This document shows, piece by piece, positions 12,397 through 24,529 of a stretch of DNA of 32,332 nt. Position numbers and translations under genes: made by a program. Under the pieces are notes generated by a model, which was not told where the DNA came from, did no database searches, and was given only the letters and a program-made list of their open reading frames with translations. Source of the stretch: a virus; the IMG/VR virus record IMGVR_UViG_3300044647_002064, positions 1-32,332 of that record; one strand, given 5' to 3'. How positions within the stretch are numbered: the first letter of the stretch is position 1; the number at the start of each line of letters is the position of its first letter.

Positions 12397-13635
12397 TTAT
12401 TTTTTGTATTTGTAGGAAGTATCTATTGGTCTTTTACCATATCTTTTTTCCATAAGTTTCTGGTGTAAGTCCCAATCTAATATAGATTCATTTGTTTGTT
12501 CTTTTTCATCAGGAAGGAGAGAATATATTTTTGATATTTTTTTCATTAAATTTGTTGAGACATAATTAAATCTTTCACACTCGTCTTTAAAAAAGTCCAT
12601 TTCTCTATCTTTATATTTTGAAACGTGATTAATAAACTTTCTTCTAACCTTTTCTTTTTCTTCTCTTGGTGGATTAATTTGGCCACCAAATAAGTTTACC
12701 CCCATAAACCCACTAAACATTTGTGCCATTTTTTCAGAATGTGTATAAAAGAAATTATCAAATGTATCCACTTTAGCATTAACTAAGTTAATATAAATAA
12801 GTTCCAAAACTGATTTAATTTTTTCTTCATCATTCATAGTATCAGGATCTCCACCCGCATGACTAATTAATCCATCAATACTATCCATTTGTTCGTATAA
12901 CTGCTCCATTAAATAATCATATGAAAATTCACGTATTTTTTTAAGTTCAGTAAAAACCTCATCATTTACAATAAAATCATAAAAATCTTGTTTTTTAATT
13001 CCTTTTTGGATCATTCTTGAGGCAACCTCAGTTGGTCTTACAATGTTTTCTGATTGTTGTATAAAATAACTATACCTCATAAATTCATTAATCACAGGTA
13101 TTCCAAATCTTAAAGTTCCTGAAGAATAAACGTTATAATCAGCAGTTCCACCAATAAGTTCGTGTTCTTGTTTTTGTCTATGAAATCTATGCATTATTTC
13201 GTGTGACATTACAGATACTGTTTGTTCTTTATCTTTGGTAAATTCTTCATATAACTCTTCAGGTTCCCAACCTTCGGGAGATATAAAGTTTATATGTAAT
13301 TCTATTGTTTGACTTTTAGCGTTAACTTGCAACATTACACCTTCGTCAAAATTAAATTCATTACCAACACCCATAGATGCAATCACCGGATATTCATATG
13401 GGAAATCTTCAACTTCTTCAACAGAAACCGCAACATTTATTTCAGTGAACGTTACATCAGATATTACTAAGTCACTATAAATTTTAAAACTATAATTTTC
13501 TTCGGTGGTATCTATTGTTTTTAATTCATCAGATACTAAATTGTATAATTCTTCACCCGCTTGTAATATTCCTTCAGGAACACCAACAGCTTCCTGTAAT
13601 ATTTTAAATTGATTTTCTGTTAAAATGATTTTCAT
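12397..13635 (-). CDS. Putative tagged zinc metalloprotease (412 aa)
   Basis: The zinc site HEIMH (145-149) fits HExxH and sits in SVMSHEIMHRFHR. A plausible third ligand is Glu 203 in RPTEVASR, 54 residues on. The first ten residues, MKIILTENQF, are the tag shared with proteins at 18217 and 18644 and include the (L/I)-x-E site L-T-E. The C-terminal part is long, helical and charged, ending TNESILDWDLHQKLMEKRYG. The likely role is peptidase activity on a host or virion target; injection with the DNA is a hypothesis based on the tag. TATTTATT lies 3 nt before the start. No signal peptide. Confidence 0.75.
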   Translation of the reverse strand: MKIILTENQFKILQEAVGVPEGILQAGEELYNLVSDELKTIDTTEENYSFKIYSDLVISDVTFTEINVAVSVEEVEDFPYEYPVIASMGVGNEFNFDEGVMLQVNAKSQTIELHINFISPEGWEPEELYEEFTKDKEQTVSVMSHEIMHRFHRQKQEHELIGGTADYNVYSSGTLRFGIPVINEFMRYSYFIQQSENIVRPTEVASRMIQKGIKKQDFYDFIVNDEVFTELKKIREFSYDYLMEQLYEQMDSIDGLISHAGGDPDTMNDEEKIKSVLELIYINLVNAKVDTFDNFFYTHSEKMAQMFSGFMGVNLFGGQINPPREEKEKVRRKFINHVSKYKDREMDFFKDECERFNYVSTNLMKKISKIYSLLPDEKEQTNESILDWDLHQKLMEKRYGKRPIDTSYKYKK

Positions 13636-15348: not shown

Positions 15349-16755
15349 TTATGATTTAACACCATTTTGAATAATATCTTTAACTTCATCTTGATGATAC
15401 CATTCACTTCCTGACATTATAACTTTAACACCATTTTCAATAGCATAATTAATATCTTCAGTAATTATAGCGTTAGTAACCATATGATCTTTTTGTTGAT
15501 AACTTTCAGCCATCTTATGTTTAACTTCTTTAACACCATTTTGTATAACATCATCAACTTTACGATTTATACGGAGATGTCTAGCACCTGTGTCTTTTAC
15601 TCCATTTTGAATAACATCGTCAACTTTACGATAATTCCACCCTAAAATATCTTTAACCCCATTTTCTATAACATCTTCATCAATGATATTATCATCCATG
15701 TCAAAGTGTCCAATATCTTTCACCCCATTTTTAATTGTCTTATCAACATTCGGTGGTTGCTGACCACCAAATTCAATCGCATTTTTAATTTCCCTACTTC
15801 TTGGGAAAACCCAAGCTGAGATTTCTTTTACCCCATTTTGAATAGTTTCGTCAACCGCACCCAATGGATACCACATTCGTGTTTGGGTGTCCTTTACCCC
15901 ATTTTGAATTGTGTCTTCAACATTTATATCTCCCTCAAAATAATACGGATAACTTTCTTTCACTCCATTTTTAAGGGTATCTTCAAAATCAGGATTTAAG
16001 GATTCAAGTACGTCCTTGACATATTTTACCCCATTTTGAAGGGTGTCTTCAACGATATCCTCCAACGGACTTGAATCACCGTCAATTTCCTTTACCCCAT
16101 TTTGAATGGCATTTTCAACATTGGTTGTCATAGAAAATGGATTATCTATAATTTCTTTCACTCCATTTTGAATGGCGTCTTCAACAAACATCCTTCCTTT
16201 TATAAAATCAAAGAAGGTGTGCTTTACCCCATTTTGAATTGTGTTTTCAACACCCATGTCATTCATAAAATCATCGGGTTCAGTATTTTTCACTCCATTT
16301 TGAATGGTGTCTTCAACTAAGTGTTGTACCAACTCATTTTGATATGAGGTGTCCTTTACCCCATTTTGAATGGTATCTTCAACTCGCCTGTAGTAAATCA
16401 TATTTTTTTGTTTGGCGTCCTTCACCCCATTTTGAACTACGTTTTCAACTATTGAATACGGTACATTAGATGTGTCAGTAACATGTTCAATGTCTTTTTC
16501 TAAAAATCTTGATTCAAACCATTCTTTAATTATATCTTTTGACTCAACACAATCAATGCTAAGTAATTTTAATTCAGAATGAAATAGATTATAATTAAAC
16601 CAAAGAGTTTTTGTGTTTGTAAATTCAATAACCCATCTTTTTTCTTCTGTGAATATTAACCACATTGATGATTTTGTTACATACTTATCGGCACCTTCAA
16701 TCATGTCATCAAACATGCCATATATCAATTTTCTTATTTTAGGTGTTATTTCCAT
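15349..16755 (-). CDS. 22-residue repeat protein (468 aa)
   Basis: Residues 1-95 form an N-terminal domain (RKLIYGMFDD, WLIFTEEKRWVIEF, LWFNYNLF, IIKEWFESRF). From residue 103 to the end run about 17 units of a conserved 12-residue block, V-E-D-T-I-Q-N-G-V-K-D-T or close variants, each followed by about 10 highly variable residues. Ten consecutive units keep an exact 66-nt spacing. The unit near 336-350 (IKNAIEFGG) is degenerate. Codon third positions vary within the conserved block, so selection acts on protein. To my recollection other tailed phages carry similar LW-x-N-Y proteins with repeat arrays; function unknown. A promoter lies at 16760-16791. Confidence 0.85.
   Translation of the reverse strand: MEITPKIRKLIYGMFDDMIEGADKYVTKSSMWLIFTEEKRWVIEFTNTKTLWFNYNLFHSELKLLSIDCVESKDIIKEWFESRFLEKDIEHVTDTSNVPYSIVENVVQNGVKDAKQKNMIYYRRVEDTIQNGVKDTSYQNELVQHLVEDTIQNGVKNTEPDDFMNDMGVENTIQNGVKHTFFDFIKGRMFVEDAIQNGVKEIIDNPFSMTTNVENAIQNGVKEIDGDSSPLEDIVEDTLQNGVKYVKDVLESLNPDFEDTLKNGVKESYPYYFEGDINVEDTIQNGVKDTQTRMWYPLGAVDETIQNGVKEISAWVFPRSREIKNAIEFGGQQPPNVDKTIKNGVKDIGHFDMDDNIIDEDVIENGVKDILGWNYRKVDDVIQNGVKDTGARHLRINRKVDDVIQNGVKEVKHKMAESYQQKDHMVTNAIITEDINYAIENGVKVIMSGSEWYHQDEVKDIIQNGVKS
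15352..16449 (-). repeat. Tandem 66-bp in-frame repeat array
   Basis: About 17 copies of a ~30-nt core (plus strand, like TTTACCCCATTTTGAATGG followed by TGTCTTCAAC) separated by ~36 nt of unrelated sequence. Core positions step by exactly 66 nt from about 15833 to 16427, then 57-105 nt towards the C-terminus. It mimics a CRISPR array but is coding. Confidence 0.95.
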
Positions 16756-16763: not shown

Positions 16764-16791
16764 GGTATGATTATATTTTTAATTAATCAAA
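16760..16791 (-). promoter_or_regulatory. Bacteroidetes-type promoter for gene starting 16755
   Basis: TTTG (16791-16788), 20 nt, then TACCTTTC (16767-16760), 4 nt, then ATG on the minus strand. The last base deviates from TAnnTTTG, possibly because it is part of the palindrome at 16749-16763. Confidence 0.6.
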
Positions 16792-16808
16792 CTATTTATA
16801 ATATTATC

Positions 16809-17255
16809 ATGGAAAGACTAATTAGAAAAATATTAAAAGAGGAAAGTTTAAAACAATCTTTAAAAGATCAAATTAAAGAATTTGGTTGGAAAGATACTGC
16901 GGAATTGGTTAATGGATCCGAGAATCTAAAAAAATTATCCGGAATTAAAACACCGATAGATTTTCTTAACTTATTTAATGATCTTGATGTTGTTCAGAGT
17001 GAGGAACGACCAATATTGACTTTATTTCGATATAAAAAACATAATAATCTAATGGTTTACGATCGAAAAAAAGAGATTGTTTACCTAGACTATGATAAAA
17101 TTTGGTTAGTTTTACGAGATGATTTCGGTCTTAACCTTACTGATACACAACAACTTATAAAGGAATGGTTGGGTGAGGTCTACAATTTAAGTGGAATCAC
17201 AACAACAACCAATTTGGATATACAACTTCCGAGTTGGATGAGACCTATAATTTAA
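16809..17255 (+). CDS. Tag-B cassette protein 1 (148 aa)
   Basis: Starts MERLIRKILKEESLKQSLKD. The first ~11 residues are the tag shared with the next two genes; I-L-K-E fits an (L/I)-x-E prohead-protease site. The body has EFGWKDTAELV, DFLNLFNDLDVVQS, TLFRYKKHNNLMVYDRK and WLGEVYNLSGI. It is homologous to the next gene along almost its whole length. A 14-codon upstream extension is possible but would precede the conserved tag. No known domain. It begins the plus-strand cassette; TATTTATA lies 8 nt before the ATG. Confidence 0.8.
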   Translation: MERLIRKILKEESLKQSLKDQIKEFGWKDTAELVNGSENLKKLSGIKTPIDFLNLFNDLDVVQSEERPILTLFRYKKHNNLMVYDRKKEIVYLDYDKIWLVLRDDFGLNLTDTQQLIKEWLGEVYNLSGITTTTNLDIQLPSWMRPII

Positions 17256-17259
17256 AAAT

Positions 17260-17715
17260 ATGAAAGAACTAATTAGAAAAATATTAAAAGAGGAAAGTTT
17301 AAAGCAAACTTTAAAAGATCGTGTTAAAGAAGATGGATGGGAATATGTTGCAGAATTGGTCGGTGATGGGGAAATTTTAGCAAGATTAGGATTTAATAAT
17401 GATCCGGTTGAGTTCCTTAACTTATTTAACGACCTTGATATTGTTCAGTCAAAAGAAAAACCATATTTGACTTTATTCAGATATGAAAAAGGAAATAATA
17501 TGATGATTTACGATAGAAAAAATGAATATGTTTATATAAATTATGATGTTATTTGGTCATTTTTGGGAGATGTTTTTGGTTTAAAATATGTGGAAATACA
17601 AGAACTTACACAGGAGTGGTTGAGTGAGACATACAATTTAAGGGGAATCACAACAAAATTGCTGGTAAATTACTTTGATTATCAGTTGAGTGAGGCATAC
17701 AATTTAAAAATATGA
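17260..17715 (+). CDS. Tag-B cassette protein 2, paralog of protein 1 (151 aa)
   Basis: Starts MKELIRKILKEESLKQTLKD, nearly identical to the previous gene's first 20 residues, and follows it throughout (EFLNLFNDLDIVQS, LTLFRYEKGNNMMIYDRK, IWSFLGDVFGLKY). Its end is partly duplicated: LSETYNLRG recurs as LSEAYNLKI just before the stop. It is a recent tandem duplication. It overlaps the next gene's ATG by 4 nt (ATGA). Function unknown. Confidence 0.85.
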   Translation: MKELIRKILKEESLKQTLKDRVKEDGWEYVAELVGDGEILARLGFNNDPVEFLNLFNDLDIVQSKEKPYLTLFRYEKGNNMMIYDRKNEYVYINYDVIWSFLGDVFGLKYVEIQELTQEWLSETYNLRGITTKLLVNYFDYQLSEAYNLKI

Positions 17716-18197
17716 AACAACTAATAAAAAAAATATTAAAAGAGGTGGAAGAAGAAAAAGAACTAACAAATCTTAAAGAAACCTTAATGGGTTATATTTC
17801 AACCGTTGGTGTTTTAGAAACAATAAAAATGGTTGGTGATATTGATATTTTTAATGAAATAGTTCCCGATTACTTTTCTAAAAAAAGTCACAAAATAGAT
17901 TTAATTAATGAACTTGTTAATGCTAATGATCCTGATGGTTATATATATTTTTATGAACTAATTAATTCGGACATTTCATTAGGTCAAGTTGATTCTTATG
18001 AAAACGGTGATGGTCACACATTTGAACAATATATACTTTCAGTTGGTGATGGTTCTGTTCTGATTAGTATTTATGAGTATGATGAAGAAGGTGATATGTA
18101 TGACGAATCTGTGGATAGTTATCGTGTTTCTCTTGGAAAATTACCAAATAATGAATTAAATAAAGTTTTTGAAGTATTGGTGGATTATTATTTATGA
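17712..18197 (+). CDS. Tag-B cassette protein 3 (161 aa)
   Basis: The tag MKQLIKKILKEVEEEKEL is like the two preceding genes, but the body is unrelated: a helical part (LKETLMGYISTVGVLETIKMVGD) and an acidic C-terminal beta-rich part (ILSVGDGSVLISIYEYDEEGD; ending ELNKVFEVLVDYYL). This is evidence that tag and body are separate modules. Function unknown. It overlaps the tag-remnant mini-ORF at 18194. Confidence 0.8.
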   Translation: MKQLIKKILKEVEEEKELTNLKETLMGYISTVGVLETIKMVGDIDIFNEIVPDYFSKKSHKIDLINELVNANDPDGYIYFYELINSDISLGQVDSYENGDGHTFEQYILSVGDGSVLISIYEYDEEGDMYDESVDSYRVSLGKLPNNELNKVFEVLVDYYL

Positions 18198-18220
18198 AAA
18201 ACTTAATTAGAAAAATATGA
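18194..18220 (+). other. Tag-B remnant mini-ORF (MKNLIRKI, stop)
   Basis: An ATG overlapping the stop of the previous gene opens MKNLIRKI and then stops at the TGA that overlaps the next gene's ATG. Its DNA (TTAATTAGAAAAATAT) matches the tag-B coding sequence at 16817 and 17268, then switches to a tag-A gene. It looks like the scar of a body/tag swap and could also couple translation to the next gene. Confidence 0.6.
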
Positions 18221-18639
18221 AAATAATATTAACAGAAGAACAATACGATAAATTAATATCTTCTCTAACGGGAGAACCTAAAAGCAATCCGTCTTTATTT
18301 TCTAAATTTAAAAATTGGGTATCGGGTAATAGTGACAACGAGATTGGTAAAATGTTATTGAAGTCAATTGAGTCTGGAAATTATGAATTTGATGGGATTG
18401 ATATTTTATATACTTTATATACTATAAAATTTTCAATAAATAATTTCCCGTTTAAAATAACAAAAGATAATGGTAGCACAAAAGATAATATATTTTCTTT
18501 ATATATGCCATATGTTAAGGAAGAATTAAAAATAAATAAAAACTTATTGAAACATATTTTTGATTTAATGGCTAAAAAACATATGGACCTTAATGATTAT
18601 TTTAACATGTATTTAAATGATATGATTAATTCACTATGA
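18217..18639 (+). CDS. Tag-A cassette protein 4 (140 aa)
   Basis: Starts MKIILTEEQYDKLISSL. The first 29 nt of coding sequence are identical to those of the next gene. L-T-E fits an (L/I)-x-E protease site. The body is Lys/Asn/Ile-rich with FSKFKNWVSGNSDNEIG, ITKDNGSTKDNIFSLYMPYV and a helical end (HIFDLMAKKHMDLNDYFNMY). No domain recognised. Within the plus-strand cassette, 4 nt before the ADP-ribosyltransferase candidate. Function unknown. Confidence 0.75.
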   Translation: MKIILTEEQYDKLISSLTGEPKSNPSLFSKFKNWVSGNSDNEIGKMLLKSIESGNYEFDGIDILYTLYTIKFSINNFPFKITKDNGSTKDNIFSLYMPYVKEELKINKNLLKHIFDLMAKKHMDLNDYFNMYLNDMINSL

Positions 18640-18643
18640 AAAT

Positions 18644-20221
18644 ATGAAAATAATATTAACAGAAGAACAATATAAAAGTTTAATAAATGAGAATTTATTT
18701 AAGGACACCTTAAAAGACCTTAAAATAAATACCGGAATTTTATTCACATTTGGTACAGGAATGGCCGCATTTTTAGGTCCTGTTGAAAGATTACTTACAG
18801 GATCGGGGTTTTCATTTAATTCTACAGAAATATCACTTTTAATAATTTCAGCAATTGCCAATTTAATCAATGACACAAATAAAGATAAGTTATTAGAAAA
18901 GTTAAAAGAATTAAATTTAACTGACGCTCTTGGTGGTGTTGAAAATTTAATTAAAAAATCAACGGATATAATAAGAGAAGTTGTTAAAGGTGTTTTAGGT
19001 GTTTCATATTCATTAACTGAAATACTTGGGTTTGCATTTTTATTAAACCCTGTTATGAAGATCATTGGTTCAATAATAAATGATAGAAATATCACCACTG
19101 ATAATTTACAAGTATTAGTAAGTGGTGTTGTATTAGGAGGTATTGTATTTTTTATTAGAAACCTATTAAAAAAATCAAAAGATAATTTAGGTGAAAGTTT
19201 TGTAACATTAAAAGAAGATATTGAACCATCATCAAAGGCAGTTAAAAACATTTGTGATTCAAAAAAGTTCTGTAAAGCACAAGGAAAAATAACATTCGGC
19301 CAATTAAGAGAATTGGTTGAAAATGCAAAAACAAATAGATTATTTTTACACATTGGTGAAGGCGGATATAAGGCAACTCTTAGATTACTACCTTGGTTTT
19401 TTCCTCAGTTAGCAATTGCTGGTTTTACAGGTTCTTTATTAAGAGCGTTCAACAAAGTTTTTAGACCAACATTAGAAGAAACAACAGGATATAAAACATG
19501 GTGGGGTAAAACCATTATGAAGATATTCAATCTTGTTGAGGGTGAGTTAGGCACAACTGATCCTTTATCTAAAATATTTTTTATATCTGATGGTTTAATG
19601 ACCATGTTAGATGACAAACTAAAAGTTAAATTTGCAAGATACATTGCAGATATTGCATCAGAAAAACCTGATGATGAAGAAGTTCCTGAGTTTTTTGTTG
19701 AAAATGAATTAAGATATTGGTTAAATGAGAAGTTCTTATTGGATCCACCTCTATCACCAAAAAACCCAACAATAGAAGATAAAGAAACTTTAGATGAAAG
19801 TTATATTAGATTAAGTGAGGACAATACTGATAACTTACTTGGTTACTTATATGAGATGGGTTTTGATAATGATGACGCATTATATCAACTAAACGACATC
19901 ACAGATTTTTATGATAATTTACCTGAGACGCTAACACTTTATAGAATGGTATTTGCCGGTAGTAAAGATGAAATAGATACACAATATCCAGGTTCACATT
20001 ACGCAACAAACAAAAATGATTTATTAGATAGTCACTACACTTCTTTAAGAGATTCAAGTTATGGTGATAATTGTTATGTGATAAAAGTTAAAGCACAAAA
20101 ACAACTAATAGATAGTTACGAATCAATAAAGAATAACATTCTTTATCCAAACGAACAAGAGATCACATTAAAGAATAAAGGGTTTGGTGTTGATGTAATA
20201 GAAATAATGCAGGTCAATTAA
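18644..20221 (+). CDS. Tag-A membrane protein with C-terminal ADP-ribosyltransferase-like domain (525 aa)
   Basis: Tag MKIILTEEQYKSLI. Hydrophobic helices lie at about 31-50, 62-77, 125-147, 155-173 and possibly 252-268. A central helical region carries a Cys pair (NICDSKKFCKAQ). The last ~100 residues fit an R-S-E ADP-ribosyltransferase: TLYRMVFAG (Arg 434), YPGSHYATNK (Ser 451), and YPNEQEITL with Glu 504 and Glu 506 as an E-x-E pair, then KGFGVDVIEI. T4 Alt is a precedent: an injected ART cut after I-T-E near its N-terminus by the prohead protease. The role, NAD-dependent modification of a host target after injection, is inference. Convergent with the MPPED gene. Confidence 0.65.
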   Translation: MKIILTEEQYKSLINENLFKDTLKDLKINTGILFTFGTGMAAFLGPVERLLTGSGFSFNSTEISLLIISAIANLINDTNKDKLLEKLKELNLTDALGGVENLIKKSTDIIREVVKGVLGVSYSLTEILGFAFLLNPVMKIIGSIINDRNITTDNLQVLVSGVVLGGIVFFIRNLLKKSKDNLGESFVTLKEDIEPSSKAVKNICDSKKFCKAQGKITFGQLRELVENAKTNRLFLHIGEGGYKATLRLLPWFFPQLAIAGFTGSLLRAFNKVFRPTLEETTGYKTWWGKTIMKIFNLVEGELGTTDPLSKIFFISDGLMTMLDDKLKVKFARYIADIASEKPDDEEVPEFFVENELRYWLNEKFLLDPPLSPKNPTIEDKETLDESYIRLSEDNTDNLLGYLYEMGFDNDDALYQLNDITDFYDNLPETLTLYRMVFAGSKDEIDTQYPGSHYATNKNDLLDSHYTSLRDSSYGDNCYVIKVKAQKQLIDSYESIKNNILYPNEQEITLKNKGFGVDVIEIMQVN

Positions 20222-23557: not shown

Positions 23558-24529
23558 TTATTTTAATTGAATTATAACTTTATTCATATACCCCTCAAGA
23601 AGAAAAAGTTTTCTTCTAATACCAATATTATCCATATCAGCTAATAACCTCAAATAGTCGTTTAGTTCTTCAAGTAGTGTTTGTAATTCAACTTCCTTTT
23701 GAATCTCTAAGTCAGGAAATGTATTTTTAAGTGCGTTTTTATGTCTATTTGATAGTTCTTCTTTTTCTTCTGTATTTTCTTTAATAAAGCTTTCTATCTC
23801 TTCTGTTGTTGCTGTTGTGATTTCTCTATTTTTGGTAAACTTTTCAATAAACTTATTTTTTAATTTTTTTGGTATAAGTTTAGTTTTCAAAGTTAATGTT
23901 TTATCTTTATCTTCACCATTAGGTTCAAGATAAAAAGCCATATAACTATCGTGTTCTTTGGATTCACCTACTAAAAATGATGGTGATTCTCCACGACCAA
24001 CTGTTTCGCAAACACCTCTAAGCAATACACCTCTTTCACCTTTTACTTTATATTCTTCTGGATTTTCCAAAACATCATCTAACAACTTATGTATATCATT
24101 TTTAAATGTTAATTCTTTATTTATTCCAGAAATATCTTGAGCCATTTCTGGATTCCAAGTTAATAAAATATGTTTTCTTGGTGTAAAATCCATCGGATCA
24201 TAAATTGTTGGCCCAATTGCTGCACCATTTTTAACAGGTTTTAGTAATAAATTTGGGTCATACATTTCAGGAGTTAAACTCAAATTATACAAATAAACTT
24301 TACCTTTAAATTTTGTATCATCATATAATTTGAATGTCTGTGATGTGTGTGTTGCATCTTCTATTATCTGTGTAGGATAATCCATAAATTCAATTCCTTC
24401 ACAAAACATGAATTCCTCACATTTTAATAATTCTTCTTTTAATGGTTCTAAGTCCTTTTTTAAATATTGGTCTGTCGGATATGCCAAATTATCTGCAAAT
24501 CTTTCAGTTAGTAATTCTTTTAGTTTCAT
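23558..24529 (-). CDS. Hypothetical protein with LTE N-terminus (323 aa)
   Basis: Starts MKLKELLTERFADNL. LLTE is an (L/I)-x-E site 8 residues in, similar to other tags here but with a different leader. The middle has YLYNLSLTPEMYDPN and HILLTWNPEMAQDI; the C-terminal third is a long helical, Glu-rich region (TEEIESFIKENTEEKEELSN) ending in a hydrophobic helix. No recognised domain. Its 5' end overlaps the upstream gene by 26 nt. Possibly a virion protein; function unknown. Confidence 0.75.
   Translation of the reverse strand: MKLKELLTERFADNLAYPTDQYLKKDLEPLKEELLKCEEFMFCEGIEFMDYPTQIIEDATHTSQTFKLYDDTKFKGKVYLYNLSLTPEMYDPNLLLKPVKNGAAIGPTIYDPMDFTPRKHILLTWNPEMAQDISGINKELTFKNDIHKLLDDVLENPEEYKVKGERGVLLRGVCETVGRGESPSFLVGESKEHDSYMAFYLEPNGEDKDKTLTLKTKLIPKKLKNKFIEKFTKNREITTATTEEIESFIKENTEEKEELSNRHKNALKNTFPDLEIQKEVELQTLLEELNDYLRLLADMDNIGIRRKLFLLEGYMNKVIIQLK

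Follow-up and report, generated by a model that had tools for sequence, protein, structure and literature searches.

The array gene at 15349-16755 of the window, a 32-kb fragment of a viral record (32,332 nucleotides), encodes a small folded domain followed by repeat units with the geometry of a CRISPR array, and it is neither a CRISPR-Cas locus nor a DGR. Despite their CRISPR-like look the units stay translatable, suggesting that CRISPR-style DNA insertions are converted by phages into protein segments that keep changing. The explanation that we tentatively favour, with slightly less than even confidence, is that short pieces of foreign DNA enter a coding gene by a process resembling CRISPR adaptation, with selection on the protein and shuffling acting afterwards. 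If true, this would constitute a third phage route to protein diversification beside retroelement mutagenesis and cassette recombination, and CRISPR-type repeat-spacer units would become protein, for which no description was found in the literature searched; it would also explain CRISPR-geometry arrays in coding genes, which are invisible to gene-masking searches. The main features of the region are:

15349-16755, minus strand: array gene, a single open frame of 468 aa comprising the N-terminal domain (N-domain) and 16 units
16501..16755, minus strand: N-terminal domain, residues 1-85, built of alpha, four beta strands and two alpha helices
15790..16449, minus strand: ten units of exactly 66 nt (residues 103-322), each a 36-nt core and a 30-nt window
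16348..16383, minus strand: core most similar to the CRISPR type VI-B repeat (24/36, antisense to the gene)
15349..15789, minus strand: degenerate distal part of the array, six irregular units, VI-B identity down to 13-18/36
16767..17255, plus strand: paralogous neighbour with a lone CRISPR-like core at 17168-17203 (23/36), without duplication
17260..17715, plus strand: neighbour gene with a single insertion, core 17619-17654, window 17655-17684, partial second copy from 17685

The initial annotation had read the gene as a repeat protein translated in one open frame, with ten units at an exact 66-nt period, and both statements were borne out, six irregular units following the ten regular ones. 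Its core of about 30 nt and spacer of about 36 nt have to be swapped, the step lying between nt 36 and nt 37. Each 22-residue unit consists of a 12-aa core peptide (consensus V-E-D-T-I-Q-N-G-V-K-x-T) and a variable window of 10 aa. The N-terminal domain that had been placed ahead of the array is present, but instead of about 95 residues it spans about 85 aa, with a linker up to residue 102. Residues 1-80 are predicted by AlphaFold2 with a pLDDT of 94-98, and D23, S30, W32, W41, L51, W52, N54, F58 and W79 are invariant in 62 relatives. The domain found no match in Pfam or, including by structural comparison, in the PDB, and its matches in BFVD are uncharacterised proteins of uncultured phages only. 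Proteins with three successive N-domains and a small array after each (L183, L184 and L185) were observed on G001, the contig of array L106; some of these triple-domain proteins are fused to further domains, one of them with nucleotidyltransferase-like motifs. A further family match, G009:C1:49675-50169, carries an in-frame TAG and is possibly a decayed copy or a case of recoding.

The array gene has two close relatives, L002 and L003. A pattern search of IMG/VR for two NGVK codon blocks at unit spacing yielded at least 119 stretches, and a search for exact cores yielded 88 viral-contig stretches with two exact 17-nt cores at the same spacing, so that the repeat pattern is not a matter of chance. 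Removal of near-duplicates left 72 arrays with 630 windows. Related arrays, more than 100 of them, occur in uncultivated phages, and relatives of the array protein were not found in 84,980 prokaryote genomes. The array-carrying phages have T4-like terminases, and one of the best-covered named matches is that of Flavobacterium phage immuto, at about 27% identity. One and the same 24-unit array was seen nearly unchanged in more than 10 contigs from different metagenomes (L007, L009, L013, L022, L072, L080 and others), and a long array can therefore be stable.

The boundary between core and window is sharp at the DNA level. The nine cores of L106 share at least 30 and mostly all 36 nt without a difference, next to unrelated 30-nt windows, the contig ending within the ninth core. 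Over all pairs of near-identical cores, an identity of 0.97 gives way to 0.266 across the adjoining windows (0.272 by chance), and in young relatives it drops from about 0.95 to about 0.25 precisely between nt 36 and nt 37. The CRISPR-like geometry with unrelated windows noticed earlier is thus real, window identity being at chance level in young arrays. N-proximal cores are under DNA-level constraint, as they keep codons which are rare in other phage genes: ACC at T4 (0.89 vs 0.15), GGG at G8 (0.82 vs 0.11), GTG at V9 (0.71 vs 0.12) and ACC at T12 (0.79 vs 0.15). This bias relaxes in distal units. Toward the C-terminal end of the array, core identity to the consensus declines (Spearman -0.44, p 3e-26) and windows other than 30 nt become commoner (Spearman 0.36, p 4e-17). 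Units differing between related arrays are enriched in the N-proximal third (216, 134 and 119 in the N-proximal, middle and distal thirds, set against totals of 401, 362 and 424 units), the pairs being non-independent. Given this core decay and N-proximal turnover, the units next to the N-domain seem to be the young ones and those at the array end the old ones. The final copy often breaks off 18-23 nt into the core, for which simple target duplication does not account.

The reading frame is strict across the 630 windows of this N-domain family. None of the 213 young windows contains an in-frame stop, whereas a composition-matched shuffle places at least one stop in 53% of windows, which gives a joint chance of about 10^-69. 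No unit was located past a stop codon and no core outside an open frame, and a scan with open spacing recovered only in-frame distances in the array family (66 nt, 69 nt twice and 63 nt once). Stop counts in the remaining five frames were set aside as uninformative, because their depletion is explicable by codon-position composition.

The same geometry is found on other cores. Further N-domain genes on G001 have the core VERILQKEVKDT, with 36+30 nt units and cores DNA-identical inside each local array, and a second domain family, to which both neighbours (16767-17255 and 17260-17715) appear to belong, has arrays of VEEHYKMGVTTT with the same 36+30 geometry. Inserts in these sister genes are of 30 nt, and also of 29 nt (L130, and L086/L214, which are one allele) and 31 nt (L020); the 29- and 31-nt inserts shift the frame at the gene end.

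The 630 windows form 449 clusters, 377 of them singletons, and the commonest windows occur in 13-15 different non-redundant arrays. Relatives L002 and L003 (the latter with 25 windows) keep 12 of the 14 windows of array 15349-16755 in the same order, and related arrays differ by gain or loss of whole units. Shared windows are under purifying selection (pN 0.096, pS 0.274, dN/dS 0.30; their cores 0.32), the counts being confined to windows at least 60% identical as protein, which biases the values somewhat downward; once present, windows are therefore held as protein. When windows were compared with one another as reverse complements or shifted copies, 3 short matches in reverse orientation turned up and no out-of-frame ones. 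The proposal of freely hypervariable windows beside a strongly conserved block does not survive these data, since relatives keep windows in order, windows recur in up to 15 arrays, and shared windows are under purifying selection. What persists of the scaffold with variable windows is that windows are unrelated within an array; the variation consists in which units an array holds. The units are modular, with conserved windows, turnover of whole units and exchange of units, and do not form a freely variable scaffold. The array may still display peptides that bind targets.

An alternative is that the protein came first, as a modular peptide-display repeat protein whose units are shuffled between phages by homologous recombination at the cores, with windows supplied by an unknown phage process and the VI-B likeness described below due to coincidence and peptide constraint. 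The strict frame, the selection on shared windows and their recurrence agree with it, as do cores devoid of a CRISPR hairpin and the failure to find a spacer source. We nevertheless consider it rather unlikely, because it leaves unexplained why a sharp 36/30 ruler recurs on three different cores, why cores identical at the DNA level adjoin unrelated windows, why N-proximal units keep rare codons and why sister genes have 29- and 31-nt inserts that break the frame.

The insertion reading draws on the similarity of the cores to known CRISPR repeats. Compared antisense at offset 0, VED cores match Flavobacterium VI-B repeats at 22-24 of 36 positions, and VER and VEE cores at 21-22 each; the next best offset gives 13-16, shuffles average about 10, and II-C and V-A repeats gave nothing comparable. 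The core of the neighbour gene (17619-17654) matches the F. branchiophilum VI-B repeat, antisense, at 24 of 36. Flavobacterium repeats of the VI-B form (a subtype assigned here, the source table giving none) are of 36 nt with spacers of 29-30 bp (PMC5395568), and in F. columnare the II-C and VI-B repeats are both of 36 bp, with new spacers of 28-32 bp, mostly 30 (PMC8092290). The peptide accounts for some of this VI-B likeness, since the main core still averages 18-20/36 when recoded with synonymous codons; the observed 22-24 exceeds that value with P 0.002-0.015. The excess holds for VER (P 0.0004-0.0014) and for VEE of L217 (P 0.0006-0.003) and is not significant for the L086 and L130 cores. 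The fetched phage DNA contains 3.8 million 36-mers, of which 352 in array context and 16 elsewhere have at least 24 matches to the F. columnare VI-B repeat, several of the 16 sitting in a genuine CRISPR array; these counts are inflated because the loci overlap. Cores of array 15349-16755 match the same repeat at 18-24/36 in the ten-unit part and fall from 24 to 13 along the gene. The resemblance is clear but stops short of identity, and the core types, probably interrelated, are not independent cases. CRISPR mimicry, as first suggested, holds for the geometry but understates the likeness, which extends to VI-B sequence and register and to DNA-level codon constraint. Rare codons in N-proximal cores, the VI-B match and the Flavobacterium-like 36/30 geometry all point to CRISPR.

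It is very unlikely that the locus is a working phage CRISPR array, in which antisense crRNA-like RNAs would be loaded by host Cas13b, block it or be aimed at rivals and the open frame would be secondary. Repeat and spacer sizes and the VI-B similarity would suit such an array, and the same phages can have genuine mini-arrays (L032), but the open frame is kept against the chance given above, with no unit past a stop, and older windows drift at synonymous sites. Nor is the repeat hairpin conserved: fold z-scores of the phage coding cores range from -0.5 to +1.1, compared with -2.5 and -3.7 for two Flavobacterium repeats. No Rfam CRISPR family matched above its gathering score. No spacer-like match to foreign DNA, which the initial annotation had named as the sign of a true array, was obtained in phage, plasmid and IMG/VR searches.

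The 23 windows of G001 have a GC content of 0.475 +/- 0.016 without strand bias, higher than the 0.29 of the L106 locus and the 0.27 of its N-domain, and are therefore unlike the DNA of that phage. With natural arrays each used as a single query, neither the contig G001 itself (190 kb) nor 1.8 Mb of related phage DNA nor cultured phages and plasmids yielded a source for any window; for two windows the search extended to all of IMG/VR and gave no second copy. Own-genome origin is ruled out for G001 and the 1.8 Mb, matches of 16-25 nt being about as expected by chance. A match to Prevotella phage Lak-A2 was rejected as due to chance in AT-rich sequence, the large gene in which it lies being unrelated.

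According to the insertion reading, the C-terminal end of a small folded phage domain would lengthen by 66-nt steps, each new unit being a 36-nt copy resembling the antisense Bacteroidetes type VI-B direct repeat together with about 30 nt of DNA that is unrelated and looks foreign. The likeliest source of units would be a host Cas1-Cas2-type integrase that measures the ~30-nt insert and duplicates the 36-nt repeat; in a close variant, units would be acquired by recombination with host CRISPR arrays. In F. columnare the II-C Cas1 serves the divergent VI-B repeat in trans (PMC8092290). Cas1 (PF01867) was not detected in 16 array-carrying contigs, which are possibly incomplete and in which host genes are not visible. 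An exact search of the 84,980 genomes did not recover the core 23-mer, which leaves this exact repeat without a known host array and counts against the insertion reading. In the array-gene family only inserts preserving the frame would survive. Older units would lose the DNA signature of the repeat, retain its protein motif and be swapped between phages via the cores, their windows turning into constrained peptides. The likeliest benefit would be that CRISPR adaptation is absorbed or diverted, with the translated array as a changing set of peptides; such counter-defence, in which spacer integration is diverted into phage DNA, had no description in the literature searched. The more specific proposal that host adaptation machinery writes random 30-bp fragments into CRISPR-repeat mimics, the phage thereby diverting memory and gaining selectable peptide modules, we regard as doubtful. 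Confidence in the mechanism is held below even by points that it leaves unexplained or that run contrary to it: the incomplete last copy, the absent hairpin, the apparent orientation of the young end and the missing protospacers. The younger, N-proximal end lies opposite to the expected VI-B leader side, as far as orientation is readable from PMC8092290, which counts against integration.

An ordinary tandem repeat protein of 22-residue FNIP/MORN-like units with diverged loops is improbable and already disfavoured: it shares the period and N-G motif, has a Crov588 profile match (E 1e-4) for the whole sequence only and could form the beta hairpins of one low-confidence model, but single repeats pass no profile, Pfam has no match, the windows lack conserved fold positions, the better-covered of the two conflicting models is disordered, and DNA-identical cores beside unrelated windows are not expected from divergence.

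With Flavobacterium VI-B and II-C arrays the phage arrays share 36-nt repeats, unique spacers of 29-30 nt and an age gradient (PMC8092290, PMC5395568), and with VI-B arrays also repeat sequence similarity at zero offset; they differ in being translated in one frame and fused to a protein domain, with no cas genes seen, no hairpin in the cores, older units conserved as protein and protospacers not found. Racrs, the solitary repeat units (PMC10651486), are likewise phage-borne CRISPR-repeat-like sequences, but they are solitary and non-coding, whereas the array here is tandem, coding and devoid of a hairpin; in that survey predicted genes were masked and there were no type VI cases (PMC10651486). 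The mini-CRISPR arrays of huge phages are similar as short arrays with host-like repeats in large phages, yet they are non-coding guides (PMC7162821) and the present arrays are coding. DGRs too are a phage mechanism diversifying defined protein segments. Here, however, the windows match each other at chance level, being unrelated and not mutated versions of a template, no template repeat and no copy of the windows elsewhere in the fetched phage DNA were found, and no reverse transcriptase (RVT_1) was found in the 16 array-carrying contigs, which are possibly incomplete.

Many unrelated proteins near the array gene begin with one of the short recurring N-terminal tags LIRKILKEE, MKIILTEEQ and MKLKELLTE. 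These could be targeting or cleavage signals, as on capsid-internal proteins of T4-like phages. The proteins with recurring start tags are:

16767-17255, 17260-17715, 17712-18197, 12397-13635, 18217-18639, 18644-20221 and 23558-24529

Other CRISPR-like elements were also observed on viral contigs. The stretch 6907-8790 of L211 (IMGVR_UViG_3300042869_000717, the contig of L032) comprises a gene for a 443-aa Cas12f-like/TnpB-type protein (PF07282, E 2.5e-20) and, following it, a mini-CRISPR array of five repeats GTTGGGAATCATCACAATTTGAAAGGTAGTCACAAC with spacers of 29-30 nt; a coding array gene lies 1.4 kb beyond. The locus is possibly a compact phage CRISPR system, and the L032 repeat was rejected as a coding-array type, being part of the Cas12f-like system. 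On another viral contig L110 (885-1845) has 15 repeats GTTGCGACTTGACCCCGTTTTCCCTTCTGCTACGCT with 29-31-nt spacers outside an open frame, a conventional-looking array, and L093 (4294-7900), also viral, has a long array with the repeat GTATAATCCTAGCCATAATGGCGTTAAAAT and a period of 65-68 nt.
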